Origin: Gammaproteobacteria bacterium
GTDB lineage: Bacteria > Pseudomonadota > Gammaproteobacteria > Steroidobacterales > Steroidobacteraceae
NCBI GenBank assembly: GCA_025359565.1
Contig: JANYFY010000009.1
Location: 496,001 to 560,000 of the forward strand
Direction: 5' to 3'
DNA: 64,000 nt
Shown here: positions 13,559 to 28,454 of the stretch, piece by piece
Layout: the number at the start of each line of letters is the position of its first letter
Numbering within the stretch: position 1 is the stretch's first letter
The notes under the pieces: model-generated
Told to the model about the DNA's origin: nothing
The model's database searches: none
Seen by the model: only the letters and a program-made list of their open reading frames with translations
Position numbers and translations under genes: made by a program

Positions 13559-13612
13559 TAATAGAGAATGCTAGTCGACTTAGAGGTCTCTCGCAATGGT
13601 AAAATTTTGAAT

Positions 13613-14761
13613 ATGAAATCCGCGCGAGATTCAGTAATACGACTGGGAATAATATTACGTGTGAGCGCGTTTCACATTGTGCTTGCGAGCGTCGTCCTGA
13701 CCGCTGCGGCAGCGGCCTCCGATTCAGCCTCGAACGCTGACAAACGCCTGTATATTTACAATTGGACTGATTTCATTGGTCGAAATACCATCGCTCGCTT
13801 CGAGCGCCTCACTGGATTTAAAGTTATTTACGACGTATACGACGCAGAGGAGACCATGGAAGCGCGCCTCATGGCGGGAAGTTCTGGATACGATGTCGTG
13901 GTCGCCTCCACAAATTATTTTAGTCGTGAAATTAAAGCGGGAGTCTACCAACCGCTGGACAAGCAAAAGCTCACCGGTTGGAAAAATATTGACCCGCATA
14001 TACTGGCTATTCAAGCTCAGTATGATCCGGGGAATAAGCATGCAGTGCCGTACTTACACGCCATCAATGGTTTCGCTTACAACGTGGATATGATTCGTGC
14101 ACGGATGCCGAACGCTCCGGTTAACAGTCTCGATATGATTTTTAAGCCTGAAGTAGTGGCTAAATTTGCGGATTGCGGCGTCACATTTCTGGATTCGGCA
14201 GAGGACACTTTGCTATTGGCATTAAAATATTTAGGAATTGATCCGAATACGACCCGTGCGGAAGACTTTAAAGCCGCCGAAGCGTTGCTGCTCAAGGTGC
14301 GGCCCTATGTGCGCGCGTTTGATTCCGCCGAATACTTGAATGGGCTCGCCAACCAGGAGTTGTGCCTCGTCATGTCATGGTCGAGTGACTATGCAATGGC
14401 ACAGGTACGCGCTAAGGCTGTGGGGGTCAATGTAAACCTTCGCTTTACGGTGCCTAAGGAAGGGGCCAACCAAAATTTTACCGGACTCCTGATTCCAGTG
14501 GGCGCACCGCATCTTGAAGCCGCACATCAATTTATTGATTTTATCTTACGGCCCGATGTGATTTCGGAGATCACCAATGAAATTTATTATGGCAATGACA
14601 ATATCGCGGCAAGGCCACTTATTCATACCAATATATTGAATGATCCCACTTTGTACCCGACCCCCCAAATAGAAGCGCGCCTGTATCGCACCCGTGAGGC
14701 AAGTGCTGCCACTGAGCGAATCAGAACGCGTATTTGGACACGAATTAAGACGGCGGATTAA
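13613..14761 (+). CDS. Pot-type ABC transporter substrate-binding protein
   Basis: Periplasmic binding protein of the PotD/PotF family (spermidine/putrescine-type). After a signal peptide ending near AAAAAS, the mature protein begins with the family signature LYIYNWTDFIG, then DVYDAEETMEARLMAGSSGYDVVVAS. The ATG at 13613 puts the signal peptide at the N-terminus; an ATG at 13568 would add 15 residues before it. It is separated from its permeases, which are on the other strand at 15309-17042, and from its ATPase at 25741. The ligand could be a polyamine or another cationic amine. The stop overlaps the next start at A14761. Confidence 0.9.
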   Translation: MKSARDSVIRLGIILRVSAFHIVLASVVLTAAAAASDSASNADKRLYIYNWTDFIGRNTIARFERLTGFKVIYDVYDAEETMEARLMAGSSGYDVVVASTNYFSREIKAGVYQPLDKQKLTGWKNIDPHILAIQAQYDPGNKHAVPYLHAINGFAYNVDMIRARMPNAPVNSLDMIFKPEVVAKFADCGVTFLDSAEDTLLLALKYLGIDPNTTRAEDFKAAEALLLKVRPYVRAFDSAEYLNGLANQELCLVMSWSSDYAMAQVRAKAVGVNVNLRFTVPKEGANQNFTGLLIPVGAPHLEAAHQFIDFILRPDVISEITNEIYYGNDNIAARPLIHTNILNDPTLYPTPQIEARLYRTREASAATERIRTRIWTRIKTAD

Positions 14762-15342
14762 TGCAAAAAAAAACAGTCAGTTTTCAGCGGATGGAAGACG
14801 GTACCCGCGAGGATTATGCGCTCTTGGATGATTCCGAGCGTAAGTACGCGCTGAGACTTCCCGATACGATTCTGGCAGCGCTTGGCAAATTGGATCATAC
14901 GTTATGGGGTTATCCTTTAAGTCGCCTACAACATTCTTTACAGGCAGCGACTCGCGCGCGTAATTCCGGCGCCGATGATGAGCTAGTACTCGCGGCGCTA
15001 GTGCATGATATCGGTGACGAGCTTGCTCCCTATAATCACACCGAAATTGCGGCGGGCGTTATAAGGCCTTACGTGCGGAATGAAGTAACGTGGATCGTGC
15101 AGCAGCACGGTCTGTTTCAAAATTTCTATTACGTGCATCATTTTGGTGGCAATCGAAATGCGCGCGATCAATTTCGCGATCATCCCTGGTTTGAGGCGTG
15201 TCGGAGTTTCTGCGAAAATTGGGATCAATGCTCATTTGACCCCAATTTTCCGACCGATTCTCTCGCGTCGTTCGAGCCTTTAGTGCGTCAGATTTTCAGC
15301 CGCACGGCTCATGATCCCCGATACGTATCCACTACTCGTTGA
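14761..15342 (+). CDS. HD-domain protein of the PhnZ/TmpB-like group
   Basis: A 193-residue HD-domain protein (COG4341-like, often labelled HD phosphohydrolase). Candidate metal ligands are His58, His82-Asp83 (VHDIGDE), His93 (NHTE), His116 (QQHGLF) and an Asp near 155-160 (NWDQCSFD). This H-HD-H-H-D set fits two-metal HD proteins, including the mixed-valent di-iron oxygenases PhnZ and TmpB, which act on phosphonates; TmpB acts on a trimethylammonio-ethylphosphonate derivative. Oxygenase function here is inference, supported only by the onium-type surroundings. It is coupled to the binding-protein gene upstream, and its 3' end overlaps the convergent permease gene by 34 bases. Confidence 0.8.
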   Translation: MQKKTVSFQRMEDGTREDYALLDDSERKYALRLPDTILAALGKLDHTLWGYPLSRLQHSLQAATRARNSGADDELVLAALVHDIGDELAPYNHTEIAAGVIRPYVRNEVTWIVQQHGLFQNFYYVHHFGGNRNARDQFRDHPWFEACRSFCENWDQCSFDPNFPTDSLASFEPLVRQIFSRTAHDPRYVSTTR

Positions 15343-16136
15343 CGTTCATTGCGGCGCATCAAGTAGCCGGCCAATATAACGCATGCACCCACTGCGCCTA
15401 TCATGATACTGGCTAATGCATTCACATCCGGACTGAGGCCCAATTTCACTTTTGAGAATATGATCATCGGTAAAGTGCTGGCACCAGGACCCGATACAAA
15501 ACTGGAAATCACTAAATCATCGAGCGACAGGGTGAAGCTCAACAGCCAGCTAGAGGCGAGGGCGGGAGCGATCAGCGGCAGCGTCGTGTCTAGGAAGGCT
15601 CGTAGGGGACCCGAACCTAAATCCATGGCGGCCTCTTCAAGTGAATGATCCGTACTCACTAGACGCGATTGTACGGTGATGGTGACGTAGGCAGTACAAA
15701 ACACTACATGAGCAATTACGATGGTGACGAATCCCCGGTGCGGCCAGCCCAACAAATGCAGCATGGATACAAACAGCAGCAGTTGAGTAATTCCCGTAAT
15801 AATTTCCGGCATGACTAAAGGTGCATTGACCATGCCGGTGAGTAAAAATCGGCCGTAAAAGACCTTAAAGCGCACTAATGCAATAGCCGCTAGAGTGCCG
15901 AAAATAACGGCCGCCGTGGAGACGAGCATGCCTATTTTTAAGCTTAACCATGCGGCGTCGAGAATTTGTGGATTGTGCAGTAGCTCGCCGTACCAGGCGG
16001 TTGAAAATCCACCCCAAACGGTGACCAATGCCGAGGCATTAAAAGAGTAGGCTATCAATACCAATATCGGGATATAAAGTACGGCAATCCCTACGCAAAG
16101 CATTGATATCAGAAAGGGAGAAATTCGACTATCCAT
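15309..16136 (-). CDS. Pot-type ABC transporter permease (PotI/PotC-like)
   Basis: Inner-membrane permease with about six helices. The EAA loop that contacts the ATPase is visible as LEEAAMDLGSGPLRAFLDTTLP. The second permease of a PotFGHI-type importer usually follows the first directly, as here: the start at 16136 is adjacent to the stop of the upstream permease. Its 3' end overlaps the convergent HD gene. The substrate is probably the one bound by the protein encoded at 13613-14761. Confidence 0.92.
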   Translation of the reverse strand: MDSRISPFLISMLCVGIAVLYIPILVLIAYSFNASALVTVWGGFSTAWYGELLHNPQILDAAWLSLKIGMLVSTAAVIFGTLAAIALVRFKVFYGRFLLTGMVNAPLVMPEIITGITQLLLFVSMLHLLGWPHRGFVTIVIAHVVFCTAYVTITVQSRLVSTDHSLEEAAMDLGSGPLRAFLDTTLPLIAPALASSWLLSFTLSLDDLVISSFVSGPGASTLPMIIFSKVKLGLSPDVNALASIMIGAVGACVILAGYLMRRNERQRVVDTYRGS

Positions 16137-17042
16137 TTAAGTCACTATTTGCCGACTAGAGTAGTGCTGATAGATTGCGATGGGGCCGACCAGCAATATT
16201 AAGAACACCACCGCGACGGCGGACGCCACGGGCCAGTCGCGATTGCCGAAAAATTCATCCCATAACACTCGACCAATCATCAAACTATCCGGCCCACCGA
16301 GCAGCGTAGGAATCACAAATTCACCCACCGCGGGAATAAACACGAGCATACATCCTGCGATAATGCCCGGCATTGCAAGGGGCAAAGTAATGTCGATAAA
16401 TATACGCCAGGGTGGGCTGCCTAAATCGGCCGCAGCCTCGCGCAACGAGTGATCCAATTTCTCGAGCGTTGCGTACAGCGGCAAGACCATAAACGGAAGG
16501 TACGAATAGACAATCCCCAAATAGACCGCGAAATTGGTGCGCATCATGTGAAGCGGGTGATGGATAAACCCTAACCAAAGTAGAGTTTGGTTAATTAGCC
16601 CCGTGTCTCGAATAATTCCTTCTAACGCGTAGACGCGCAGTAAAAACGAAGTCCAAAAAGGCAGGATAATAATCAGTAAGAGTAGACTTTGAGTAACTCT
16701 TGAGGTGCGGGCAATCGCATACGCCATCGGAAAACCTAAGCCTAAACAAATTAGGGTTGAAAAAAATGCGGTTCGAATGGAATAAAGATAAGCCAGTCCG
16801 TAGACGGGATCCGTGAATAAATACCGGAAATTGTCGAAGTGCGGGCTGAAATGAAGGTGACCATTGGCATTAATCGATAGAATTTCGCTAAAGGGCGGGA
16901 CTCGCACCGCTGTTTCTGCCAAGCTAATTTTAAGGGCAAAAGCAAATGGAATCAGGAAAAATACTAATAAGTATAATAAGGGCGGCAAAATGATGAACCA
17001 TTTGCCGTTGCGTTGTATCCAGGGTCGTTGGGATTTTTTCAA
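16137..17042 (-). CDS. Pot-type ABC transporter permease (PotH/PotB-like)
   Basis: First permease of the Pot-type importer, 301 residues, with about six helices and the EAA loop LREAAADLGSPPWRIFIDITLP. The start is a TTG at 17042; no ATG lies between it and the first conserved residues (WFIILPPLLYLLVFFLIPF). It is transcribed divergently from the TetR-Rieske fusion with only 17 bases between starts, so each promoter must overlap the other gene or lie within it. The two permeases form their own small operon. Confidence 0.92.
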   Translation of the reverse strand: MKKSQRPWIQRNGKWFIILPPLLYLLVFFLIPFAFALKISLAETAVRVPPFSEILSINANGHLHFSPHFDNFRYLFTDPVYGLAYLYSIRTAFFSTLICLGLGFPMAYAIARTSRVTQSLLLLIIILPFWTSFLLRVYALEGIIRDTGLINQTLLWLGFIHHPLHMMRTNFAVYLGIVYSYLPFMVLPLYATLEKLDHSLREAAADLGSPPWRIFIDITLPLAMPGIIAGCMLVFIPAVGEFVIPTLLGGPDSLMIGRVLWDEFFGNRDWPVASAVAVVFLILLVGPIAIYQHYSSRQIVT

Positions 17043-17059: not shown

Positions 17060-18730
17060 ATGAGTTTGCTTAAGAAAATCCCACGCTCCAGAAGTATTAA
17101 CAATCGTCAGCGCCAGCGTCTGATCGATGCGTGCATCTCGGCTCTGCATGTTTTTGGACCTTCGCGTACCACCGTCGAGAAAGTAGTTGCCATCGCCAAA
17201 ATGTCTCCTGGCATTGTTAGGTTCTACTTCGATTCTAAAGCCAGTATGCTGGTCGCGTCATTGCAATTTCTCGCCACGGAGTTTGAGGAGCAAGTTTTGG
17301 TTCCGGTCGCGCAGCTTAAGAACGCGCCGGTGTTGGCGGTAGAATCATTAGTGCGTTTGTATCTCGATCCTGCCATTGCTAGCACTCGGAAAGTCTCGGT
17401 TTGGTATTCGTTTTGGGGCGAGGCGAGTTCACGTCAAGAATATTACGACATTTGTGGACAGAAAGACGAGAGCTTTGCGATTTTGGTACACGAACTTATC
17501 CAGCGTCTCATTCAGGAGTCGCAACAAACTCACCTAGATGCCGATGCCATTAGCCTAGGACTTATCGGCGTCTTGGAAATTTTGTGGCAAAATTTCGCGT
17601 TTCAGGCTGAGAAAAATATTGATCGAAGCAGCGCGCATAAACGTGCGATGGCGTATTTGAGTTCAGTCTTCCCCAGCCAGTTTGCGGCCTACCCACACCC
17701 GTCTGATCCTAGTGGTGGGGCCTTAGGAACACCGCGATGGCCCAAGGCCTTTAGCAGTGATCGCCTTTTTGAGATGGAAAAAGACCAGTTGTTTCGCCCA
17801 AGTTGGCAAATCGTGGGACTTAAGTCCACTTTAAGGCGTCCGGGAGATTTTTTTAATGTGGACCTCGGAACTGAGCGTGCCTTGGTTCTTAAGGATCAGC
17901 ACGATAGCGTACAGGCATTGCGTAATTGCTGCCCCGTAACCCCGCACACCTTAACTTTGGGAAGTGCTGGACGGCTTGAAGGTGTTATTCGTTGTCCCGT
18001 GCATAATCTTACCTTTGAGCTCGACGGTAAGTCATATGATAAACAGCGCCATTTAGATTTGTTTAAACTCGAATTACAAAGTATGGATCCTTTTGTTGCA
18101 ATCGGTTCGAGCACCACGAATGCGGCGGCTTTCGCGACCCGCAAATGGGTTGCTGAGTGGATTCCAGCGGGTTTGCGATCATTAGGGGCTACTTGCGAAT
18201 ATACAATTGAGGCGGACTGGAAAATTGTCGTTGAGGATTGGTTGGCTGTTGAAGGGGGAATAATTTTTAAGAACTTCCATCTTGCAGTGGATCCCGTTTC
18301 AAATACTATGACTTGGACGATTAGTCTTAAGCCCTTGCAACAAGGCAGCGTAAGGCTCTACAGGAAGATAGTGGGTAACACAACGAATAAGTTCTATCGA
18401 TTCTTTGCTTCTCCCAATCAATTATTTGAGCTTGGGCCCGACGGTCTTTCTATTGCTCAGGTCAGACCCACAACGCTGGGGAATTGCAATATCCGAGTAA
18501 TGAATTTCACGCGACTCGAGATATCCAGGCAGCGCGAAGCGCGCATCGCCCGCTATTTGGCCACCCGTCTAAGCGCCACGTTGTGCGTCGGCGCCCGGCG
18601 GCGCGCGCACTCGACACAAGATGCAGTCGTCGAGTTTGGTTACCCCTTGCGATCGGAAAATGTCAGCCAAGCTGTCGCGGCATTTAGACGATACTTAAGC
18701 CAAAATATTCCCGACACTACGCATCCTTAG
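17060..18730 (+). CDS. TetR regulator fused to a degenerate Rieske oxygenase-like domain
   Basis: Single open frame of 556 residues. Residues 1-205 are a TetR/BetI-like repressor with its helix-turn-helix around RTTVEKVVAIAKMSPGIVRFYF. After a short linker (about 206-223), residues 224-556 align end to end with the neighbouring Rieske oxygenase alpha subunit (shared PSWQIV, PGDF/Y, CPxH, ADWKI/VDWKI). The enzyme parts are broken. The first Rieske motif CxH reads C291-P-V293 while the second is kept as C312-P-V-H315. The catalytic stretch NYLESYH-x4-H is replaced, with Ala396, Gly399 and Lys404 where the bridging Glu and both iron His would be. Catalysis is therefore unlikely. I infer a ligand-sensing pseudoenzyme controlling the island. 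The ATG at 17060 is preferred over the GTG at 17048. Confidence 0.88.
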   Translation: MSLLKKIPRSRSINNRQRQRLIDACISALHVFGPSRTTVEKVVAIAKMSPGIVRFYFDSKASMLVASLQFLATEFEEQVLVPVAQLKNAPVLAVESLVRLYLDPAIASTRKVSVWYSFWGEASSRQEYYDICGQKDESFAILVHELIQRLIQESQQTHLDADAISLGLIGVLEILWQNFAFQAEKNIDRSSAHKRAMAYLSSVFPSQFAAYPHPSDPSGGALGTPRWPKAFSSDRLFEMEKDQLFRPSWQIVGLKSTLRRPGDFFNVDLGTERALVLKDQHDSVQALRNCCPVTPHTLTLGSAGRLEGVIRCPVHNLTFELDGKSYDKQRHLDLFKLELQSMDPFVAIGSSTTNAAAFATRKWVAEWIPAGLRSLGATCEYTIEADWKIVVEDWLAVEGGIIFKNFHLAVDPVSNTMTWTISLKPLQQGSVRLYRKIVGNTTNKFYRFFASPNQLFELGPDGLSIAQVRPTTLGNCNIRVMNFTRLEISRQREARIARYLATRLSATLCVGARRRAHSTQDAVVEFGYPLRSENVSQAVAAFRRYLSQNIPDTTHP

Positions 18731-18746
18731 CCGCCAACGTGAGACC

Positions 18747-19898
18747 CTAGGCCAGAGCTTGGGGGGCAAAAGAGTGCGGCGCGGCCGCAAGTCGTACTTC
18801 TGGAATCTGCGCTCGTAATAGATTGTGGAGCTCCCACATCCATCCCTCTAGGCTGGAAAGAGGTCCGGGCTGGTAGCTACTCGATGCTAACCCCCGTTGT
18901 ACGCGGCCACAAAGCCATTTGTCCTCGTTGTTCACTTGCGTATTGATACGATTACTTAGGTACCGCATCGTCCGCATATCGCGGCGCGCATCGGGAAGCC
19001 CAAATAGTGCTGAACGAATCACGCATCGGCCGGGGCCACTCGGAAGCACCTGAAAGAAATCCATTTGATCAGGGAATACGTCGATCCCTAAATTGGGCAG
19101 AACACTGTAGAAACGCCAACAGCGGCGTAACTCTAGGGGTAAATGCGTGGCTACTTTGCCAATCCAACGCTGGTACATTCGCTCCGACCAACGAGAGGAC
19201 TCGTGCTCACGCAAAAAGCTTTGACCTCGGGCAATTCCCGGGACGGAGGCCTGATCTTCATAATCCGGCGTGAACATTCTATTTAGCCCCGGATGACCTA
19301 TGGGCACGTGATAGGACTCAAGATAATTGTCCATGGCAATTTTCCAATCCACATTCCAGGTCTCATAACTGATGGGTCCTAGCGGAAGCATGTTTTCGAA
19401 CCCGTAGGGAGCGAGTTCTTGCGCTAAAGACCCCCACATTTGTGCCACTGGCGGCGGATTACCCGCAAGACAGACAAACACAAAACCGAAGGCTTGATCA
19501 AGCCTCACTGGGTTCAATCCATATTGAGCGCGGTCGAGGCTCGCAAAACTATCCTTAACCGGCACTCCAATCAGTGCGCCGTCGGCACGATAAGTCCAAC
19601 CGTGGTACGGGCATGTAATACTCGGGCCACAGTTGCCAGTAGCCTCTAAAAGCCGCGCTCCGCGATGTCGACACGCATTGTGAAAGCCACGAATTACACC
19701 GTCCTTATCGCGCAGCACGATAACGCTTTCGGGTCCTAAGTCAAAAGTAGCGTAGTCACCGGCATTCGGAATAGTGTTGATATGACAAACAATTTGCCAG
19801 CTGGGCAGCAAAATTCGTTCTGTTTCGAGCCTAGTCATCTGCGCATGGTTGTAAACCCAGGCTGGCAACGCGTGCCTTAACTTTTCAGGGTTCGTCAT
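18747..19898 (-). CDS. Rieske non-heme iron oxygenase, alpha subunit (onium-type)
   Basis: Terminal oxygenase of the ring-hydroxylating superfamily, in the branch that includes glycine betaine, carnitine and stachydrine oxygenases. It has 383 residues. The Rieske cluster ligands are Cys76, His78 (CRHRG), Cys96 and His99 (CPYHGW). Mononuclear iron ligands are His197 and His202 in NYLESYHVPIGH, with Glu194 at the intersubunit bridging position as reported for CntA. The ATG at 19898 follows GGAGAG; a longer reading from 20006 would run through the promoter and operator region and is rejected. No reductase partner gene is present nearby. The likely reaction is N-demethylation or C-N cleavage of a quaternary amine; substrate unknown. 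Confidence 0.9.
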   Translation of the reverse strand: MTNPEKLRHALPAWVYNHAQMTRLETERILLPSWQIVCHINTIPNAGDYATFDLGPESVIVLRDKDGVIRGFHNACRHRGARLLEATGNCGPSITCPYHGWTYRADGALIGVPVKDSFASLDRAQYGLNPVRLDQAFGFVFVCLAGNPPPVAQMWGSLAQELAPYGFENMLPLGPISYETWNVDWKIAMDNYLESYHVPIGHPGLNRMFTPDYEDQASVPGIARGQSFLREHESSRWSERMYQRWIGKVATHLPLELRRCWRFYSVLPNLGIDVFPDQMDFFQVLPSGPGRCVIRSALFGLPDARRDMRTMRYLSNRINTQVNNEDKWLCGRVQRGLASSSYQPGPLSSLEGWMWELHNLLRAQIPEVRLAAAPHSFAPQALA

Positions 19899-19915: not shown

Positions 19916-19931
19916 TTATACAACCGTATAA
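19916..19931. promoter_or_regulatory. Candidate TetR operator, copy 1
   Basis: Perfect inverted repeat TTATAC-AACC-GTATAA lying 17 bases upstream of the oxygenase start. A near-identical copy lies at 19999-20014. The position, close to a possible minus-strand promoter (TTGCCA then TAACTT), fits repression of the oxygenase gene. Confidence 0.65.
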
Positions 19932-19993: not shown

Positions 19994-20014
19994 TATAATT
20001 ATACAACCATATAA
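19994..20014 (+). promoter_or_regulatory. TATAAT -10 box overlapping candidate TetR operator, copy 2
   Basis: A consensus TATAAT (19994-19999) runs directly into TTATAC-AACC-ATATAA (19999-20014), which differs from copy 1 by one base. No good -35 is visible. The site covers the expected transcription start of the aminotransferase operon (start 20042), so binding should block it. Confidence 0.65.
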
Positions 20015-20041: not shown

Positions 20042-21400
20042 GTGGCGAGAAACTTAACTAAGAGCAACGCCCATTTTCAGCAAGCGGTTAAACGGTTACC
20101 GCTTGGCGTTGCTTCAAATTTTCGCTACTGGGGCGAGGAGCGCACCATCTATGTAAAGCACGGCAAGGGCGCGCGTATTGTCGATATCGACGATAACAGC
20201 TATGTGGACTACCGTATGGGGTATGGACCCGCCATTTTGGGTTACGCCGATGCGCGAGTGGATAAAGCGGCGCGCGAAGGCATGGAAATCGGCGGCGTAT
20301 TTGCGCTTTCTACTGTGCGTGAGCTCACCGTCGCCGAACGAATTTCGAAAATGGTGCCGGCCGCGGAGTTAGTGCGTTTCTCCAATTCAGGCACTGAAGC
20401 CGTGATGGCTGGCCTAAGGTTAGCTCGCGCGTTTACCGGAAAAGATGATTATGTGTTGCTGGAGGGTGGTTATCACGGTTTATTCGACGCCGCGATGTGG
20501 TTCACGCCAATGGATAAGTGGTCTATGGTGGGCGAACCCGAAGTGCGACCTTACAGCGAAGGTGTACCGATTAGCACACGGAGCTTCGCACATTTCGTGC
20601 AAGCTAATGATGCTAATCAATTGGAAGAAGTACTCAAGAAGCACTCGCATCGGATCGCCTGTCTATTGATTGAGCCTATCATGGGCAATTGTTTAGGCAT
20701 TGCCGCTGAGCCTGCTTATTTGCGCGCGGCGCGCGAGCTCTGTGATAAATATGGTGTGGTATTGTTCATCGACGAAGTGAAGACCGGTTTTAGAGTGGCG
20801 CGAGGCGGTGTCCAAGAGTTATACGGCGTCAGCGCCGACCTTTGTACCTTTGCCAAGGCCGTCGCCAATGGATATCCGATTTCGATACTTGCAGGGCGGG
20901 AAGCCATTATGCGTAAAATCGGCAAAGGAGTTGCCCATGGCGGAACCTATACGGCACATTCCGTCTCGCTCGCAGCGGCGGAGGCTACCTTGCAAATCTT
21001 GGATGAAACGGATGCCTTAGAGCGCATCGCTGCTTACGGCACGCGCTTGCGCCAAGGAATGCATGCGTGTTTAAGCGCACGTGGTATTGCGCACAGTTTC
21101 GTGGGACACCCGTCCATGAGCGGTTTGTATTTTTCGGCGAAGCCGCCGCGTAACTATCGCGACTGGAAAGGCAGCGATTATTCTTTCTATGATGCGATGG
21201 CTAGAGTGCTGCATGATGCGGGAGTATTGTGTGAACCCGATTCTCGCGAGCCTTGGTTCGTGTCAGCAGCACACGACGACTCCTGTTTGAACGATACTCT
21301 GGCGGCATTTGAGTTCGCGGTGGATACAACCCTTAAAACCCAGGGACCTACAAAAAATCAAGGACCCGCGAAAGCTCAAGGGTTAGGAGCCAGCCATTGA
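20042..21400 (+). CDS. Class III PLP-dependent aminotransferase
   Basis: Fold-type I aminotransferase of the class III/glutamate-1-semialdehyde aminomutase-like family, 452 residues. The family blocks NSGTEAVMAGLRLARAFTG, LIEPIMGN and LFIDEVKTGFR precede the PLP lysine Lys272 in CTFAKAVANGYP. A GTG start follows an AGGGG sequence. The last 20 residues are a loose repeat (KTQGPTKNQGPAKAQG). It opens a plus-strand operon running to the ABC ATPase at 26883. It probably removes or transfers an amino group during catabolism of the imported compound; the exact substrate cannot be told from sequence. Confidence 0.88.
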   Translation: MARNLTKSNAHFQQAVKRLPLGVASNFRYWGEERTIYVKHGKGARIVDIDDNSYVDYRMGYGPAILGYADARVDKAAREGMEIGGVFALSTVRELTVAERISKMVPAAELVRFSNSGTEAVMAGLRLARAFTGKDDYVLLEGGYHGLFDAAMWFTPMDKWSMVGEPEVRPYSEGVPISTRSFAHFVQANDANQLEEVLKKHSHRIACLLIEPIMGNCLGIAAEPAYLRAARELCDKYGVVLFIDEVKTGFRVARGGVQELYGVSADLCTFAKAVANGYPISILAGREAIMRKIGKGVAHGGTYTAHSVSLAAAEATLQILDETDALERIAAYGTRLRQGMHACLSARGIAHSFVGHPSMSGLYFSAKPPRNYRDWKGSDYSFYDAMARVLHDAGVLCEPDSREPWFVSAAHDDSCLNDTLAAFEFAVDTTLKTQGPTKNQGPAKAQGLGASH

Positions 21401-22973
21401 CGCCATTGTTGTGGGGGCCGGGCACAATGGTCTAGTGGCGGCCTGTTACCTGGCGCGCGCGGGATTAAAGGTAATGGTGCTGGAGCGTAACTCGTACATC
21501 GGTGGTGCTGCCGTCAGTCGCAAACTCTACGAGGATTTCACTTACTCAAATTGCTCCTACGTATGTAGCTTATTACGGCCCGAAATCATTCGTGCACTGG
21601 AATTGCCGAAATTCGGTTTGCAAATTATTCCATATGAAGGTGGCTGCACTTTCATGCAAGGCGGCGGACATTTAGCTCTTTACGACAATCACGATGCATT
21701 GCGACGTGAAATTTCACGACACTCGAAGCGTGATGCGGAAAGTTATGATCGCTATTCGCGCGACGTCATGCGTCAGTGTAAATTTATTAAGCCCTTACTC
21801 ATGCGTACCCCGCCGGATCCGACATCTTTTAAACCTCGGGATATTCAAGAATTACTGTATTTAGGCAAGCACTTTCACGCTCTCGGTGAGCAGCGAATGT
21901 ATGACACCTTGCGTTTTTGGACCATGAGTGCGGCCGATTTTCTCGACGAGTATTTTGAGAGCGAAATTGTTAAAGCGCATTTTGCGGGCAGCTCCATTAT
22001 TGGCACCGCATTAGGACCTCGTTCACCGGGGACTGCGTACGTATTGTTGCACCATTATATGGGCGATATTGATGACACCGTCGGGGCCTGGGGCTTTGCA
22101 CGCGGTGGGATGGGATCCATCAGCAACGCACTGGGAGCGTCTTTTCAAGCGAGTGGCGGGACAATAAGAAGCACGGCGCCGGTCGCCAAGATTTTGGTGA
22201 AGTCGGGTCGTACCACCGGCGTGCAGCTGGAAGACGGTGAAGAAATTTGCGCGCCGTTAGTAATCTCTAATTTGGATGTTCGTCGTACCTTTCTCGAAAC
22301 CATGTCGGCGGATGATTTACCCGATGAATTTATTACTCAAGTCAAGAATTTTAAAATACGCGGATCATCGGGCAAATTAAATATTGCTCTAGATGCACTG
22401 CCTAGTTTCCCCGCCATACCTGTAGGGGCACCTTGTATTCGCGGCGATATGCATGTCACGGATACGCTTGAGATGATGGAGCGCGCCTATGATGATTGGA
22501 AGGATGGTCGTTGGTCGCGCTCTCCCTATATTGACATGCTAATCCCGTCGCAAATTGACCCTACCATGGTTCCCGATGGCAAACATTATATGTCGGTGTT
22601 CGTTCAATACTGTCCCTACGAGTTGGCCGAGGGTGCGTGGACCGCGGATAAACGCCAGGCGTTTGGCAACACCGTCATTAATACCATTGCCGAACATAGC
22701 CCAAATTTTAAGGATCTGATATTGCATGCGGAAATCCGTACGCCGTGGGATATCGAAAACGAAGTGGGATTGACCGAGGGAAACATCTTCCAGGGTGAAC
22801 TGACCATGGATCAACTTTTGTTCAATCGTCCTATTCCAGGTTTCGCTCAGTATCGGGCGCCGGTGAAGGGCATGTACATGTGTGGCTCAAGCACTCATCC
22901 GGGTGGTGGTGTGATGGGAGCGCCGGGAGCGAATGCGGCACGCGAAGTTTTGCGTGATTTAGGCAAAACGTGA
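21396..22973 (+). CDS. FAD-dependent oxidoreductase, COG1233 type (first copy), likely ATT start
   Basis: Flavin oxidoreductase of the phytoene desaturase/PYROXD2-like group. The N-terminal Rossmann motif DAIVVGAGHNGLVAA and the C-terminal GMYMCGSSTHPGGGVMGAPGANAA bind FAD. No ATG, GTG or TTG lies between the in-frame TAG at 21384 and the Rossmann strand, except a GTG at 21411 that would cut the first beta-strand. The ATT at 21396 restores the usual N-terminus, sits six bases after AGGAG (21385-21389) and overlaps the previous stop as ATTGA. I therefore place the start there. It is paired with a second copy downstream; a heterodimer is possible. Confidence 0.87.
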   Translation: MDAIVVGAGHNGLVAACYLARAGLKVMVLERNSYIGGAAVSRKLYEDFTYSNCSYVCSLLRPEIIRALELPKFGLQIIPYEGGCTFMQGGGHLALYDNHDALRREISRHSKRDAESYDRYSRDVMRQCKFIKPLLMRTPPDPTSFKPRDIQELLYLGKHFHALGEQRMYDTLRFWTMSAADFLDEYFESEIVKAHFAGSSIIGTALGPRSPGTAYVLLHHYMGDIDDTVGAWGFARGGMGSISNALGASFQASGGTIRSTAPVAKILVKSGRTTGVQLEDGEEICAPLVISNLDVRRTFLETMSADDLPDEFITQVKNFKIRGSSGKLNIALDALPSFPAIPVGAPCIRGDMHVTDTLEMMERAYDDWKDGRWSRSPYIDMLIPSQIDPTMVPDGKHYMSVFVQYCPYELAEGAWTADKRQAFGNTVINTIAEHSPNFKDLILHAEIRTPWDIENEVGLTEGNIFQGELTMDQLLFNRPIPGFAQYRAPVKGMYMCGSSTHPGGGVMGAPGANAAREVLRDLGKT

Positions 22974-24529
22974 GCTACGATTGCATCGTTGTCGGTGCTG
23001 GCCACAACGGCTTGGTATGCGCCACTCTGCTGGGTCGCGCCGGCAAGAAAGTTCTCGTCGTAGAGGCCGCCGAACAAGTAGGGGGTTCGGCAATTACTCG
23101 CGAATTTCATCCAGGTTTTCGAGTGTCGGCGGGTGCACATTTATTTTATGCCATGCCAAACTCGCTGTTGCGCGATTTAAAGCTTGAACACTACGGATTG
23201 CAATGGGCTGCTCGTGCGATGCGAACCACCGTGCTACAGCTCGATAAAGGGCCACTGTCGCTGGCGGTCGGTGTCGCCGATGAAGAGACACCAGGACTAG
23301 GCGGGTCGGAGGGCTTGGCGCTGGCGAGTTACCAGGCTAAGCTACAACGCTTTGCGAAGGCGTTAGTGCCGATGCTCGCCGCTATACCGCCGCGCCTCGG
23401 CACCGAGGACTGGTCGAACCGACTTAAGTTCCTTAAACTCGCCTGGCAGGTACGCAAGTTGGGGCGCCACGACATGCGTGAGTTCCTGCGCATTATCGGC
23501 ATGAACGTTTACGATTTATTGCAAGAAAATTTCTCATCCTCTGCAGTCAAGGGTGCGCTAGCCTTTGACGCAGTATTGGGCACTAATTTTGGTCCTCGCT
23601 CGCCCGGCTCGGTTCTGACTCTATTGCATCGAATGGCGGGGCTGCAGGCGACCGGGCAAAACGCAATCGCGCAACCGCAAGGAGGCATGGGTGCCGTATC
23701 TGAAGCCTTGGCAAAAGCAGCGCAGGGTGCCGGAGTCTCGATCAAGACTGGCTTAGCAGTGCAAAAAATTTTGGTCGATCAAGATCGCACCAGTGGAGTA
23801 CAACTGCAGTCGGGTGAAAAAATTGGCGCAAAATCAGTAATCTCCAATGCCGATCCTAAAACGACATTCTTGACTCTACTGGGAACAGAATATCTCGATA
23901 CGGAGTTCGTCAGGCGCGTGCAACATATTCGCACCCAAGGGCTCGCCGCAAAAATACATCTGGCACTTAACTCAGCCCCTTGTTTTACACAAATTTCAGC
24001 AGAAAGCTTGGCCGGTAGACTGATTATCTCGCCATCAATGGAATATCTTGAAAAGGCTTTTAATCATTCTAAGTACGGTGAATACTCAACGGCACCTGCA
24101 ATTGAAATCACAGTGCCCACTATCAATGATCCGGCGTTGGCATCGCGAGGGCATGTGCTCTCCGGTGTAGTTCAATATGCTCCTTACGCCCTCAAGGGCG
24201 GATGGGAGAATCAGCGGCAACGTTTTATGGAAACCGTCATTGATACTTTGGAGGCGTACGCGCCGGGTTTACGCAAATCAATTGTGGGCGCCGAGTTGCT
24301 CACGCCGGTTGATATTGAACGCGAATTTCGCATGACGGGTGGCCATTGGCATCATGGTGAGTTGGCGTTTGATCAATTCATGATGGTCCGTCCGGTGCCG
24401 GGCGCGGGGCAATATCGCACGCCCATGCCAGGCTTATTTCTGTGCGGGGCCGGCAGTCACCCCGGCGGTGGTGTCGCAGGTCTAGCCGGTCGCAATGCGG
24501 CGCTACAAGTCGTGGCGGAGGACTCCTAA
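22970..24529 (+). CDS. FAD-dependent oxidoreductase, COG1233 type (second copy)
   Basis: A 519-residue relative of the preceding gene, with the same N-terminal FAD motif (DCIVVGAGHNGLVCATLL) and C-terminal GLFLCGAGSHPGGGVAGLAGRNAA. Shared internal blocks include LGPRSPG/FGPRSPG and a QGGMGAVSEAL-type stretch. The GTG start overlaps the previous stop as GTGA. Tandem copies that have clearly diverged suggest two steps or a two-subunit enzyme oxidising a C-N or C-C bond. Substrate not known. Confidence 0.88.
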   Translation: MSYDCIVVGAGHNGLVCATLLGRAGKKVLVVEAAEQVGGSAITREFHPGFRVSAGAHLFYAMPNSLLRDLKLEHYGLQWAARAMRTTVLQLDKGPLSLAVGVADEETPGLGGSEGLALASYQAKLQRFAKALVPMLAAIPPRLGTEDWSNRLKFLKLAWQVRKLGRHDMREFLRIIGMNVYDLLQENFSSSAVKGALAFDAVLGTNFGPRSPGSVLTLLHRMAGLQATGQNAIAQPQGGMGAVSEALAKAAQGAGVSIKTGLAVQKILVDQDRTSGVQLQSGEKIGAKSVISNADPKTTFLTLLGTEYLDTEFVRRVQHIRTQGLAAKIHLALNSAPCFTQISAESLAGRLIISPSMEYLEKAFNHSKYGEYSTAPAIEITVPTINDPALASRGHVLSGVVQYAPYALKGGWENQRQRFMETVIDTLEAYAPGLRKSIVGAELLTPVDIEREFRMTGGHWHHGELAFDQFMMVRPVPGAGQYRTPMPGLFLCGAGSHPGGGVAGLAGRNAALQVVAEDS

Positions 24530-25735
24530 ATGCTCAGTCAAACGAGCGTGCCGCATTTTCAGCAACCTCTGCTTAAAACTCCGTTCCACGAGCGAGCGCG
24601 TGCCTTGAGTCAAGTAGATAGTTTTGTAGCCTGGTCCGGTTACACCACGGTGGATGTTTTCACCACGGTCGAGCAAGAATATTTTGCGATTCGCAATGCC
24701 GCCACGCTGTATGACCTGACGCCCATGGTGAAGTACCGCATCGCGGGGATTGATGCGATAGCGTATCTCAATCATTTAGTTACCCGTGATGTGACCAAAT
24801 TGAAACCCAATCGCGTCATGTACTGTGTATGGTGTAATGATGCTGGCCATTTAATTGATGATGGAACATTGTTTCGTTTAGGGTCAAACGAATATCGCCT
24901 ATGCACGGCTGATCGGCAAATTGATTGGTTGCTCGCCTCCGCGATTGGATTCGAGGTTCAGATTACGGAGGTGACCGATGAAATCGCAGCGCTAGCGCTG
25001 CAAGGACCCACTTCCTATGCTGTGTTAAAAGCCTTAGGTCTTACGGATATTGGCAAGCTAAAACCTTTTGAGCTGGATAGTTTTCTCTTGACCGGGGTTC
25101 CCGTTACGATATCACGCACCGCGTTTACCGGTGATCTAGGCTATGAGTTGTGGGTGTCGCCCGATGCGGCACTGGGCGTTTGGGATAATTTAATGGCTGC
25201 CGGGCGCTCCCGCGGAATCCGTGCCGTCGGCTCCAAAGCCTTAAATATCGCGCGGCTTGAAGCGGGTTTCATCAGTCCGCATGTGGATTTTATATCGGCT
25301 GAACATACTGTGCGAGTGGGAACTGAGCGTTCACCGTTGGAGTTGGGTCTTGGATGGTTGGTGGATTTTGATAAGGGACATTTCACCGGAAGGCGGGCAC
25401 TGCTCGCGGAGAAAGTCCGAGGGCCTAAACGCCAACTCGTGGGACTCGAGATTGTGGGCAATAAGCCCGCTCACAATGCCCTTCTCTACAGCGATGTTAA
25501 GGGGAGGGCGCTAATCGGTAACGTCACCTCGGCTACCTGGTCACCCACTTTGAAGCGTAACATTGCCCTTGCCATGATTGACGCACCGTATTTTTCGACG
25601 GGTATTAGCCTATGGGCCGAGATTTACCTCAACAGAGAGTTGCAGTGGCAGCGCCGCATGTCACGCGCTGAAGTCGTTTTGCGTCCGTTCTATGCACCAC
25701 AGCGCCGTCGTGCCACACCGCCGGCAGACTTCTAA
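24530..25735 (+). CDS. GcvT-like aminomethyltransferase family protein
   Basis: Tetrahydrofolate-dependent protein of the glycine cleavage T-protein superfamily, which also includes DMSP demethylase and the C-terminal parts of sarcosine and dimethylglycine dehydrogenases. It has 401 residues. The N-terminal block around LYDLTPMVKYRIAG, the acidic GHLIDDGTLFRL, the block FTGDLGYELWVSP and the C-terminal barrel (GLEIVGNKPAHNALLY) are typical. It probably accepts one-carbon units released by amine oxidation onto tetrahydrofolate. It starts directly after the previous stop and is part of the aminotransferase operon. Confidence 0.87.
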   Translation: MLSQTSVPHFQQPLLKTPFHERARALSQVDSFVAWSGYTTVDVFTTVEQEYFAIRNAATLYDLTPMVKYRIAGIDAIAYLNHLVTRDVTKLKPNRVMYCVWCNDAGHLIDDGTLFRLGSNEYRLCTADRQIDWLLASAIGFEVQITEVTDEIAALALQGPTSYAVLKALGLTDIGKLKPFELDSFLLTGVPVTISRTAFTGDLGYELWVSPDAALGVWDNLMAAGRSRGIRAVGSKALNIARLEAGFISPHVDFISAEHTVRVGTERSPLELGLGWLVDFDKGHFTGRRALLAEKVRGPKRQLVGLEIVGNKPAHNALLYSDVKGRALIGNVTSATWSPTLKRNIALAMIDAPYFSTGISLWAEIYLNRELQWQRRMSRAEVVLRPFYAPQRRRATPPADF

Positions 25736-25740
25736 TCAGC

Positions 25741-26883
25741 GTGCTCACCGCGCAGGTAAAAGCAGTTGATAAACCTTGGCTTGATCCGACTGCCAAGCCG
25801 CAAATTGTTATTGAAAATGTCCGGAAAACCTTTGGTGCCTTTACGGCCGTTGATAATGTATGCCTGCAAATTTACACAGGAGAAATGTTTGCCTTGGTAG
25901 GTGCATCGGGCTGCGGTAAGACTACGTTGTTGCGAATGTTAGCGGGGTTTTCCCATCCCAGCAGCGGAAGAATCGTCATCGAAGATGCCGACATGACCGA
26001 TGTGCCGCCGTACGAGCGGCCCGTGAATATGATGTTTCAATCCTATGCTTTGTTTCCACATATGACGGTTGAACACAATGTGGGATACGGATTGCGTCGC
26101 CTAGGGTTAGAGCGTTCAATCTTGCATAAGCGCGTTCAAGATGCGCTGGAAATGGTGCAGTTGGGCGATCTTGCGAAGCGTAAACCGCATCAATTATCCG
26201 GCGGCCAAAGACAACGAGTGGCGCTGGCTCGAGCACTGATTCGTAGGCCGAAAGTTTTATTGCTGGACGAACCATTGAGTGCATTAGATAAAAAATTACG
26301 CGAACAGACGCAATTTGAACTCATGAACATTCAGGCCCAGGTGGGTATCACATTCGTTTTCGTCACGCATGATCAAGACGAGGCGATGGCCCTATCCACA
26401 CGGATTGCGGTAATGGATCACGGTTGCGTGCTGCAAGTGGGCGAGCCCGCCGCTATCTACGAGTTTCCCAGAAGTCGGTTTGTAGCGGATTTCGTCGGCA
26501 CCGCTAACTTATTTGAAGGCACGGTGGTGGGCGGAGACTTGGGGTTTATTAATGTTCATAGCAACGAGGCGGGATGTCGATTGCAGGTAGATCGGCAGGG
26601 CGATTTTGCCGACCAACAACGGGTCTGGGTGGCCCTGCGGCCCGAGAAAATTCGCGTGAGTAAAACTCCGGTTTCTGCGGAGGGGATTAATCAAATAAAA
26701 GGGGTGGTTTGGGAACTGGGTTACTTAGGGAATCGATCGACGTATAGGATCAAGACGACACTTGGCAAAATTGTGACTGTCTTTTCTCAGAACGAGCGCC
26801 GTACTTCGGACTGGACAATTGACTGGAGCGATGAGGTGTACTTAAGCTGGGCCGCCAACAGTGCGGTGTTATTACGGGAATAA
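25741..26883 (+). CDS. Pot-type ABC transporter ATP-binding protein (PotA/PotG-like)
   Basis: ATPase of the Pot-type importer, 380 residues. Walker A is GASGCGKTT, the signature is LSGGQRQRVALARAL, Walker B is VLLLDEPLSALD, and the switch His lies in VFVTHDQDEA. A C-terminal TOBE-like domain follows (about residues 255-375). The GTG start lies six bases after the GcvT-like gene. It is the only ATPase of this kind in the window, so it probably serves the permeases at 15309-17042 and the binding protein at 13613. Confidence 0.92.
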   Translation: MLTAQVKAVDKPWLDPTAKPQIVIENVRKTFGAFTAVDNVCLQIYTGEMFALVGASGCGKTTLLRMLAGFSHPSSGRIVIEDADMTDVPPYERPVNMMFQSYALFPHMTVEHNVGYGLRRLGLERSILHKRVQDALEMVQLGDLAKRKPHQLSGGQRQRVALARALIRRPKVLLLDEPLSALDKKLREQTQFELMNIQAQVGITFVFVTHDQDEAMALSTRIAVMDHGCVLQVGEPAAIYEFPRSRFVADFVGTANLFEGTVVGGDLGFINVHSNEAGCRLQVDRQGDFADQQRVWVALRPEKIRVSKTPVSAEGINQIKGVVWELGYLGNRSTYRIKTTLGKIVTVFSQNERRTSDWTIDWSDEVYLSWAANSAVLLRE

Positions 26884-26898
26884 TAATACGACATAAAT

Positions 26899-26919
26899 AA
26901 AGCGATCTGCAGCTTTTTT
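26899..26919 (+). terminator. Weak intrinsic terminator after the ABC ATPase
   Basis: AAAGC (26899-26903) pairs with GCTTT (26912-26916) across eight bases and is followed by a run of T. The stem is short, so efficiency is uncertain. The position is right, between the ATPase and the next promoter. Confidence 0.4.
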
Positions 26920-26923
26920 ATAT

Positions 26924-26944
26924 TATAATTGTAACATTACAATT
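26924..26944 (+). promoter_or_regulatory. TATAAT -10 box overlapping an inverted repeat (TetR operator candidate)
   Basis: TATAAT (26924-26929) runs into the 18-bp inverted repeat AATTGTAA-CA-TTACAATT (26927-26944), 25 bases before the dehydrogenase start. The downstream operon encodes a TetR regulator at 28475, so autoregulation is likely. The layout copies that at 19994-20014 but the operator sequence differs. Confidence 0.65.
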
Positions 26945-26969
26945 GTGTGGGTTATAAGGTTAAGTCGGA

Positions 26970-28454
26970 ATGCGCACGGTTAAGACAATGGGCTTATTAG
27001 GAACTGGTGTTATTGGCGGCGGTTGGGCTGCTCGTGCGCTGCATTTTGGAATCGATGTTATTGCGGCGGATGTCAAACCTGAAATGGAGTCGTGGATTCG
27101 CGGTGCTGTCGCCAATGCCGAGCCAGCGTTGGCGCGATTGACCTTTGCGCCGCTGCCCGCCAAGGGCGAGTTATCTTTTACCACCGATCTTCGCGTAATG
27201 GCGGAGCGTGCGGATTTTATCCAGGAAAATATTCCGGAGCAATTGAGCCTTAAGCAAAAAATGCTTGCCGAGGTGAGTAAAATTGCACCAGCAGACGTCA
27301 TTATTGCTTCGAGTACTTCGGGGCTTACTCCTACTGATTTGCAGCGTGACATGCTTATCCCGGAGCGTTTCTGTGTGGCGCATCCATTCAACCCGGTGTA
27401 CTTGTTACCGTTGGTCGAGCTTGTCGGTGGAGCGAAGACGACTCAAGCGACCATTGACGCAGCGGCACTTTTTTTCACCTTCATCGGTATGCATCCCTTG
27501 CATGTGCGGCGTGAGGTACCAGGACATTTGACGGACCGCTTGCAGGAAGCTTTATGGCGCGAGATTTTGCATATTGTTAACGATGGGATTGCGAGCACGG
27601 GTGAATTAGACGATGCCATTATTTATGGCCCCGGACTGCGGTGGGCCGCCATGGGGACCAATATGATTTATCACCTGGCGGGAGGCGAGGCCGGAATGCG
27701 GCATATGTTGGCGCAGTTCGGACCTTGCCTCAAATGGCCGTGGACCAAATTAGAGGCGCCGGAACTGACCGAGAGTCTCATTGACCGCATGGTCGAGGGA
27801 ACTTCGGAGCAGGCTGCGGGCCGATCTATCCGCGATATCGAACGCCTCAGAGATGACTACCTCGTCGCGATCCAGCAAGTCCTAAGGCAATTCAATATTG
27901 GGGCCGGGTCAACTTTGCGTGCTCTTGAGGAGCGCCTGTATCAGGATGCGGACACCGGGGAATCGACATCTAGCTCGCTGACTGCGGCACTGCCCTTGCG
28001 ACTTGTGACGACTGCCGTGCGTCCGGAATGGGTGGACTATAACGGGCATATGTCGGATTTTCGTTATGGTCAGCTGTTTGGTCAGGCGATGGACGCACTA
28101 TTTCGGAAGATCGGCGTGGATGCTGATTATCGCGCTTCAGGGCATATGTACTACAACGTCGAAAGTCGGGTAATGCATTTTGCTGAAGCTAAGGTTAACG
28201 AACCTTTGTATGTGACAACCCAAATTCTCGCTGCTGACGAGAAGAAGCTGCAAGTGTTTCACAGCATGCACCGCGTGCACGATGATTTTCAAATAGCCAT
28301 CGGTGAGCAGCTATATTTACATGTGGATAGCGGCGCGGCTAAAGCATCGTCGGCGAAATCGAGTGTCATCGCCAAAATTGAGACCTTACGTAAGGCTCAT
28401 GCGGTGCTATCGCTGCCGGAACAAGCGGGGCGTATTGTGGGAGCGAGACGCTAA
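26970..28454 (+). CDS. lcdH: L-carnitine 3-dehydrogenase fused to a hotdog thioesterase
   Basis: Two-domain protein of 494 residues. The N-terminal part is a 3-hydroxyacyl-CoA dehydrogenase-like NAD enzyme with GTGVIGGGW at residues 11-19, ASSTSGLTPTDLQ, and AHPFNPVYLLPLVELVGG, as in carnitine dehydrogenase. The C-terminal part (about 342-470) is a 4HBT hotdog domain with VRPEWVDYNGHM. This fusion is known in carnitine degraders: the dehydrogenase makes 3-dehydrocarnitine and the thioesterase releases glycine betaine from betainyl-CoA. The BKACE cleavage enzyme needed between the two steps is not in this window. It is first in an operon with a TetR regulator and an acyl-CoA dehydrogenase. A related hydroxy-onium substrate is possible. 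Confidence 0.87.
   Translation: MRTVKTMGLLGTGVIGGGWAARALHFGIDVIAADVKPEMESWIRGAVANAEPALARLTFAPLPAKGELSFTTDLRVMAERADFIQENIPEQLSLKQKMLAEVSKIAPADVIIASSTSGLTPTDLQRDMLIPERFCVAHPFNPVYLLPLVELVGGAKTTQATIDAAALFFTFIGMHPLHVRREVPGHLTDRLQEALWREILHIVNDGIASTGELDDAIIYGPGLRWAAMGTNMIYHLAGGEAGMRHMLAQFGPCLKWPWTKLEAPELTESLIDRMVEGTSEQAAGRSIRDIERLRDDYLVAIQQVLRQFNIGAGSTLRALEERLYQDADTGESTSSSLTAALPLRLVTTAVRPEWVDYNGHMSDFRYGQLFGQAMDALFRKIGVDADYRASGHMYYNVESRVMHFAEAKVNEPLYVTTQILAADEKKLQVFHSMHRVHDDFQIAIGEQLYLHVDSGAAKASSAKSSVIAKIETLRKAHAVLSLPEQAGRIVGARR

Follow-up and report, generated by a model that had tools for sequence, protein, structure and literature searches.

Gene content of the locus

The window, that is the whole stretch of 64,000 nucleotides analysed here, carries a gene whose 556-aa product combines a BetI-like TetR regulator with a Rieske oxygenase domain of the CntA-like (quaternary-ammonium) kind. 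It belongs to a cluster (Table 1) with the order PotF, HD, PotI/PotH, fusion, oxygenase, aminotransferase, two CrtO-like genes, GcvT-like gene, PotG and carnitine 3-dehydrogenase. Several relatives add a gene of 499 aa, which we take, from its sequence read by eye, to resemble an aldehyde dehydrogenase. The HD-domain protein of the window is encoded at 14761-15342. In one relative (L033:2891-4039), the same cluster includes a gene that presumably, again judged by eye, resembles a gamma-butyrobetaine-type dioxygenase. Since a PhnZ/TmpB-like HD gene and this dioxygenase-like gene share the cluster in L033, they suggest a TmpA/TmpB-like pair for a trimethylammonium compound.

Table 1. Features of the locus, with positions in the window
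Feature	Position	Strand	Basis
PotF-like, HD-domain, PotI-like and PotH-like genes (polyamine-type uptake; PhnZ/TmpB-like HD)	13568..17042		domain matches
TetR::Rieske-oxygenase fusion gene (556 aa)	17060..18730	+	frame, Pfam, alignment to neighbour, recurrence in genomes
BetI-like TetR part (HTH and ligand-binding domain, residues 1-205)	17060..17674	+	TetR_C_6 (E 1.4e-9); 72% mean identity in 51 members
Rieske-like domain (residues 225-345)	17732..18094	+	Pfam Rieske (E 1.7e-9); dN/dS 0.10-0.79 in the 44 listed window-type pairs
C291-x4-H296, one half of the invariant set (Val replaces canonical H293)	17930..17947	+	51/51; H at 293 in 7/51
C312-x2-H315, other half of the invariant set	17993..18004	+	51/51
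Shortened, degenerate catalytic domain that has lost its iron ligands (residues 375-551)	18182..18712	+	sequence comparison
Intact CntA/GbcA-like Rieske oxygenase (pathway enzyme)	18747..19898	-	domain matches, intact motifs
Palindrome TTATACAACCGTATAA, candidate operator	19916..19931		
Palindrome TTATACAACCATATAA, candidate operator	19999..20014		
Class-III aminotransferase (GntE/GSAM-like)	20042..21400	+	domain matches
Two CrtO-like FAD oxidoreductases	21411..24529	+	domain matches
GcvT/TMAO-demethylase-like protein	24530..25735	+	
PotG-like ATPase and carnitine 3-dehydrogenase-like gene	25741..28454	+	

A candidate operator

The gap between the oxygenase and aminotransferase genes contains two near-identical palindromes; they match TTATAYNNNNRTATAA exactly, and nothing else in the 3.14-Mb genome does. 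The pattern TTATAY-N4-RTATAA is matched at 11-12 of its 12 positions in 45 of 48 oxygenase/aminotransferase gaps (window included) and at 10 positions in the other three, while dinucleotide shuffles of the same gaps reach at least 11 positions in 5 of 960 cases; this comparison is not blind, because the pattern was derived from the window and these very gaps. In 61 stretches between PotH and TetR no more than 9 positions were matched, a weaker control than the shuffles because these stretches are shorter (median 107 versus 255 bases) and three of them span the TetR gene. Five orthologues consist of TetR alone; four of them have a scorable gap, and the palindrome is present at 11 of 12 positions in all four. 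TTATAY-N4-RTATAA is thus the likely operator, and the TetR half of the fusion would bind these palindromes. In three of the TetR-only loci (L114, L116 and L117), the TetR gene lies directly downstream of the oxygenase gene and shares its strand with oxygenase and PotH, unlike in the window, where the TetR and oxygenase genes converge.

A TetR regulator and an oxygenase domain in one reading frame

The frame 17048/17060-18730 (+) is free of stop codons up to its end and the fusion recurs in many separate genomes, in agreement with the uninterrupted frame described in the earlier note. Because the identical single-frame layout is found across so many genomes, a sequencing or assembly artefact is very unlikely. 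The genome of the window holds one full-length copy of the fusion.

Two Pfam models, TetR_C_6 and Rieske, match the protein above their cut-offs (Table 1), and two stay below, namely TetR_N (22.0 versus 24) and Ring_hydroxyl_A (16.7 versus 24.9). BetI models match the TetR part below cut-off, with 67.1 of the 201.3 bits needed for the BetI equivalog. The architecture of a TetR HTH followed by TetR_C_6 is present, and the conserved positions are distributed over residues 10-205. The closest sequence relatives in the PDB are chains of CntA carnitine monooxygenase. The oxygenase domain had been called full-length, and it does align with the neighbouring oxygenase over 322 columns (25% identity, pairwise E 5e-20); its iron-ligand segment, however, is reduced to 65 residues versus 83, and to 20 in some relatives.

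Distribution and loss of the fusion

Some match was present in 49 of 60 relatives searched (TetR-only and oxygenase-only matches counted) and, at E 1e-20, in 69 of 200 genomes of the same family (TetR-only and type-B matches counted, see below). In a search across the class, 8 of 369 genomes gave a match at E 1e-22, the genome of the window among them. A phylum-wide search with the TetR part of a type-B fusion matched 18 of 398 genomes at E 1e-20, with 19 matches listed. Apart from the query's own, all fall in frames 208-344 aa long, with the exception of G1026 (607 aa, stop within the match), and G1026 and G776 are the long frames among them. The G1026 match (C43:93652-94239, one stop within it), from the same phylum and, as listed, another class, may represent a further fusion, and its TetR part alone entered the TetR tree. 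Among 72,556 plasmid records, none had a single place covering 80% of either the window fusion or a type-B fusion, and among viral contigs no relative was confirmed for the fusion alignment or for the type-B TetR.

For the window-type fusions (type A), 62 TetR sequences were aligned, the window included; one split over two contigs (G084) and one fragment at a contig end (G014) had been excluded before counting. A PotH-like gene is located within 800 bases of the TetR start in 60 of the 62 (59 and the window), the exceptions being L054 and L105. The Rieske region is kept in 51 of the 62 sequences, no two of which are identical, and most type-A members have a single open frame. The other 11 comprise five TetR-only forms, four truncated ones, one with a partial deletion (L109) and one with a frameshift (L119), which indicates that the module is dispensable in some lineages. 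In the TetR tree the TetR-only forms are nested at two or more points within the type-A clade. Two of the 51 (L097, which carries an in-frame stop, and L104) stop or leave their contig before the C-terminal part, so that 49 were scored for the iron site.

Loss of the catalytic centre and retention of a C-x4-H / C-x2-H set

The iron site of the fused domain is gone. Both iron-binding histidines together occur in none of the 49 members that reach the C-terminal part, the first being present in one and the second in three. The segment from DWK to PN, which holds the iron ligands in intact enzymes, measures 82-83 residues in five type-B fusions and the oxygenase of the window, and 20-75 in type A (20 in 14 members, 65 in the window). 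Given the missing histidines and the shrunken segment, a normal oxygenase function can be excluded, and the protein is a genuine TetR-oxygenase fusion that is catalytically dead, as the earlier note had proposed. Its assignment of Val293, Ala396 and Gly399 to the positions of the first Rieske His, the bridging Glu and the first iron His is borne out by the alignment; Lys404 takes the place of the second iron His if the block is aligned gap-free, but MAFFT opens a gap there.

The canonical [2Fe-2S] ligands C-x-H ... C-x2-H are likewise incomplete in the window. At the position of the first His, 7 of 51 members have H and the others R, Q, V, E, A, N, S or I. In contrast to this drift, five of the 282 columns of the appended part (those with a residue in 70% or more of the 51 members) are invariant in all 51, namely C291, H296, L298, C312 and H315, and P295 is kept in 50. 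The C-H-C-H residues are not alone in this, since L334 (50 members), A385 (49), W387 (49), P470 (48) and F542 (45) are also invariant when gaps are set aside. H296, located five residues past Cys291 and absent from the earlier reading, may be an inherited structural residue, because CntA and all eight type-B fusions have a His at +5 as well, beside the canonical one. Taken together, the invariant cysteines and histidines and the drifting canonical His indicate that the C-x4-H / C-x2-H set was kept while the catalytic centre was discarded; the four-residue site with its shifted His would be under selection, and catalysis would not.

Mean identity across the 51 members falls from the TetR part, with 86% in the HTH and 68% in the ligand domain, to 41% in the Rieske part and 35% in the C-terminal part. 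Nei-Gojobori dN/dS values were listed for the 45 pairs of lowest TetR dS, one of them type B and one including the frameshifted L119. In the 44 window-type pairs, values are 0.07-0.48 for TetR; those computed for the C-terminal part are 0.25-0.94, and together with those of the Rieske-like domain all stay below 1. Both appended parts exceed 0.4 in most listed pairs, and in the close pair L099/L100 they already reach 0.50 and 0.49; values of 0.10-0.32 come from the pairs whose appended parts are most alike (L080/L095, L049/L053, L110/L111, L088/L093). As judged from these figures, constraint on the appended part appears real, if looser than on TetR.

These data bear on the view that the appended domain is a functionless relic decaying under loss. 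It would explain the 11 losses and breakages among 62 sequences, the in-frame stop of L097 and the fast evolution. Against it stand the single open frame of most members, the dN/dS below 1 in every listed window-type pair and, above all, the invariant C-H-C-H set, which unconstrained decay would not have left behind; we therefore regard a relic as unlikely, if the strongest of the competing views.

Predicted structures agree with a group V Rieske oxygenase fold, which is the best fold match of both models calculated, a result favoured by the presence of intact oxygenases in the alignments behind them. In the window model (mean pLDDT 58.7), the ten-residue blocks of residues 231-350 are predicted at 75-87 except for 62 in block 291-300 with C291 and H296, the TetR blocks stay below 60 and residues 398-442 below 50. 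Its best Foldseek match is CntA (E 1.9e-15, TMt 0.67), so that the Rieske and catalytic-domain fold is recognisable with modest confidence. The model of L034 is better (mean pLDDT 68.5, blocks 231-350 at 76-95, first-Cys block 90), and its best matches are stachydrine demethylase and CntA.

Origin of the fusion

Besides type A, two kinds of fusion with an intact oxygenase were found, type B with eight members (L059, L060, L124-L126, L147, L149, L152) and type C with one (L151); in both, the motifs of the Rieske first loop and of the iron histidines are complete. Two type-B fusions (L147:5111-8289, L149:6669-10064) have as neighbour another oxygenase gene, which is separate and lies on the same strand.

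The oxygenase tree was built from 66 domains, comprising 20 of type A, 12 of the 49 cluster oxygenases, eight of type B, one of type C and 25 others. Type A forms one clade (100/100), types A and B fall on one side of a branch (98/90), and type C is placed elsewhere. The tree provides moderate evidence, because type A is a long branch (1.41 for the oxygenase part of the window fusion). The earlier note had regarded the fused domain as a duplicate of the neighbouring oxygenase. A clade of type A with the cluster oxygenases alone is rejected (p-AU 0.0058), which argues against such a copy; with the L035 oxygenase added, the grouping is not rejected (0.126).

In the TetR tree the fusions form a set (95/98) that includes L035, L142 and L153, and after addition of alphaproteobacterial regulators the fused sequences and L153 separate from the rest (82/63). 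Grouping A, B and C together gives p-AU 0.313, and grouping A and B 0.413. The TetR trees thus agree with a single fusion stock for all types, neither proving nor rejecting one. On the best tree, which falls short of proof, the C-terminal half probably descends from a CntA-like oxygenase that was fused to TetR while still active.

Unfused arrangements are also found. One Shinella and one Rhizobium plasmid record carry the cluster with a standalone TetR and a separate oxygenase, and in L035 (7049-8925, -) TetR and the Rieske oxygenase are encoded by two genes that share four bases (ATGA), an arrangement from which a fusion could plausibly have arisen. At the other extreme, L153 (2318-3220, -) and the TetR tails of L058 and L115 end in a similar beta remnant of 75-90 residues lacking the metal residues, matched by eye through a W..GH strand, a VLVR-type strand and a DGFVFLRP-type strand. 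Two distant lineages seem to have reduced the fused oxygenase to this same remnant.

Proposed role of the fusion protein

The interpretation we favour, with slightly less than an even chance of being right, is a pathway repressor that would rely on its own TetR ligand sensing and retain the dead oxygenase as a non-catalytic metal module. Such a protein would repress a cluster for quaternary-ammonium or methylated-amine catabolism. Its BetI-like TetR half would bind TTATAY-N4-RTATAA between the divergent oxygenase and aminotransferase genes, and its own ligand domain would sense a pathway compound. The C-terminal half, taken over from a CntA-like Rieske oxygenase, no longer has the mononuclear iron site and has shed much of the segment around it, while the C-x4-H / C-x2-H set could hold a metal, as an Fe-S or Zn site in which the His ligand is shifted. 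This module may tune or stabilise the repressor and possibly couple it to the oxygen, redox or iron state, which would suit a pathway whose enzyme needs O2, iron and electrons. A more specific and rather less probable version is that the shifted His re-ligates a Rieske-type site and makes the protein a Rieske-fold transcription factor, in which a captured, non-catalytic oxygenase would act as redox, oxygen or iron switch of an oxygenase pathway.

A different function for the appended domain would be that of a scaffold which packs head-to-tail with the intact oxygenase or reductase and so ties repressor activity to enzyme level. The head-to-tail trimer of CntA, as given in the consulted part of its description (PMC7948474), would be in line with this, as would the presence of an intact oxygenase gene close to the fusion in 13 of the first 18 window-type relatives drawn (in the other five, some at contig ends, none is seen nearby). 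The rejected clade with the cluster oxygenases (p-AU 0.0058) shows that the fused domain is not close to its presumed partner, and we consider this function improbable.

A similarly low probability is assigned to the degenerate oxygenase as a substrate sensor that still binds the compound of the enzyme, as the earlier note had suggested. A kept pocket would be in line with the Trp found in 39 of 49 members at the position of the pi-cation Tyr203 of CntA and with an acidic residue, E or D, in place of the bridging Glu in 36 of 49, and BzdR offers a precedent (PMC3602430, consulted in part). Yet the former active-site segment is the least kept part of the domain, the ligand domain of TetR is intact and better conserved than either appended part, and the four TetR-only orthologues with a scorable gap retain the palindrome. 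Synteny and the candidate operator do place the fused repressor over a pathway with an intact oxygenase; it is the use of the dead oxygenase as sensor that lacks support. A metal or redox module is the likelier role of this fused part.

Relation to known systems and significance

In the titles and beginnings of abstracts returned by full-text searches of open-access papers, no TetR/Rieske fusion regulator was described, which agrees with the novelty assumed in the earlier note; two of the papers returned, PMC2922099 and PMC12857756, contain all the terms of a search. PutA-like trigger enzymes combine regulator and enzyme in one chain. The type-B fusions would likewise unite both; the folds differ from PutA, and the protein of the window lacks the residues of an active enzyme. 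From BetI-type TetR repressors, with whose models and TetR_C_6 it matches, the window fusion is set apart by its score below the equivalog cut-off and by about 350 extra C-terminal residues. CntA and the stachydrine demethylase Stc2 (group V) are among its best sequence or fold matches and share the quaternary-ammonium context (for the biology of CntA, the consulted parts of PMC7948474 and PMC10952381), but the fusion lacks the first Rieske His and both iron histidines, has a shortened active-site segment and carries TetR in front.

The nearest precedent found is BzdR, in which an HTH-XRE is fused to an inactive shikimate-kinase-like domain (PMC3602430). According to the part of this source consulted, both proteins join a DNA-binding part to an enzyme-derived domain without catalysis in the control of a catabolic pathway. 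HTH and enzyme families are different, and BzdR depends on its kinase-like domain for its effector, whereas the window fusion retains the ligand domain of TetR and conserves a metal-type residue set.

Within one kind of pathway, the forms described here can be arranged in a series from enzyme to regulator part, beginning with separate genes (rhizobia and L035) and continuing with types B and C, the window type and the remnants of L058, L115 and L153 to TetR alone. Of the new findings, the strongest is that a domain stripped of its catalytic centre carries an invariant C-x4-H / C-x2-H set. As a natural experiment, this family can show if the displacement of a histidine is tolerated in a Rieske site. 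Its reshaped metal-type site, unchanged across dozens of species, suggests a new kind of sensor or of structural addition in gene regulation and possibly the first regulator with a Rieske fold.
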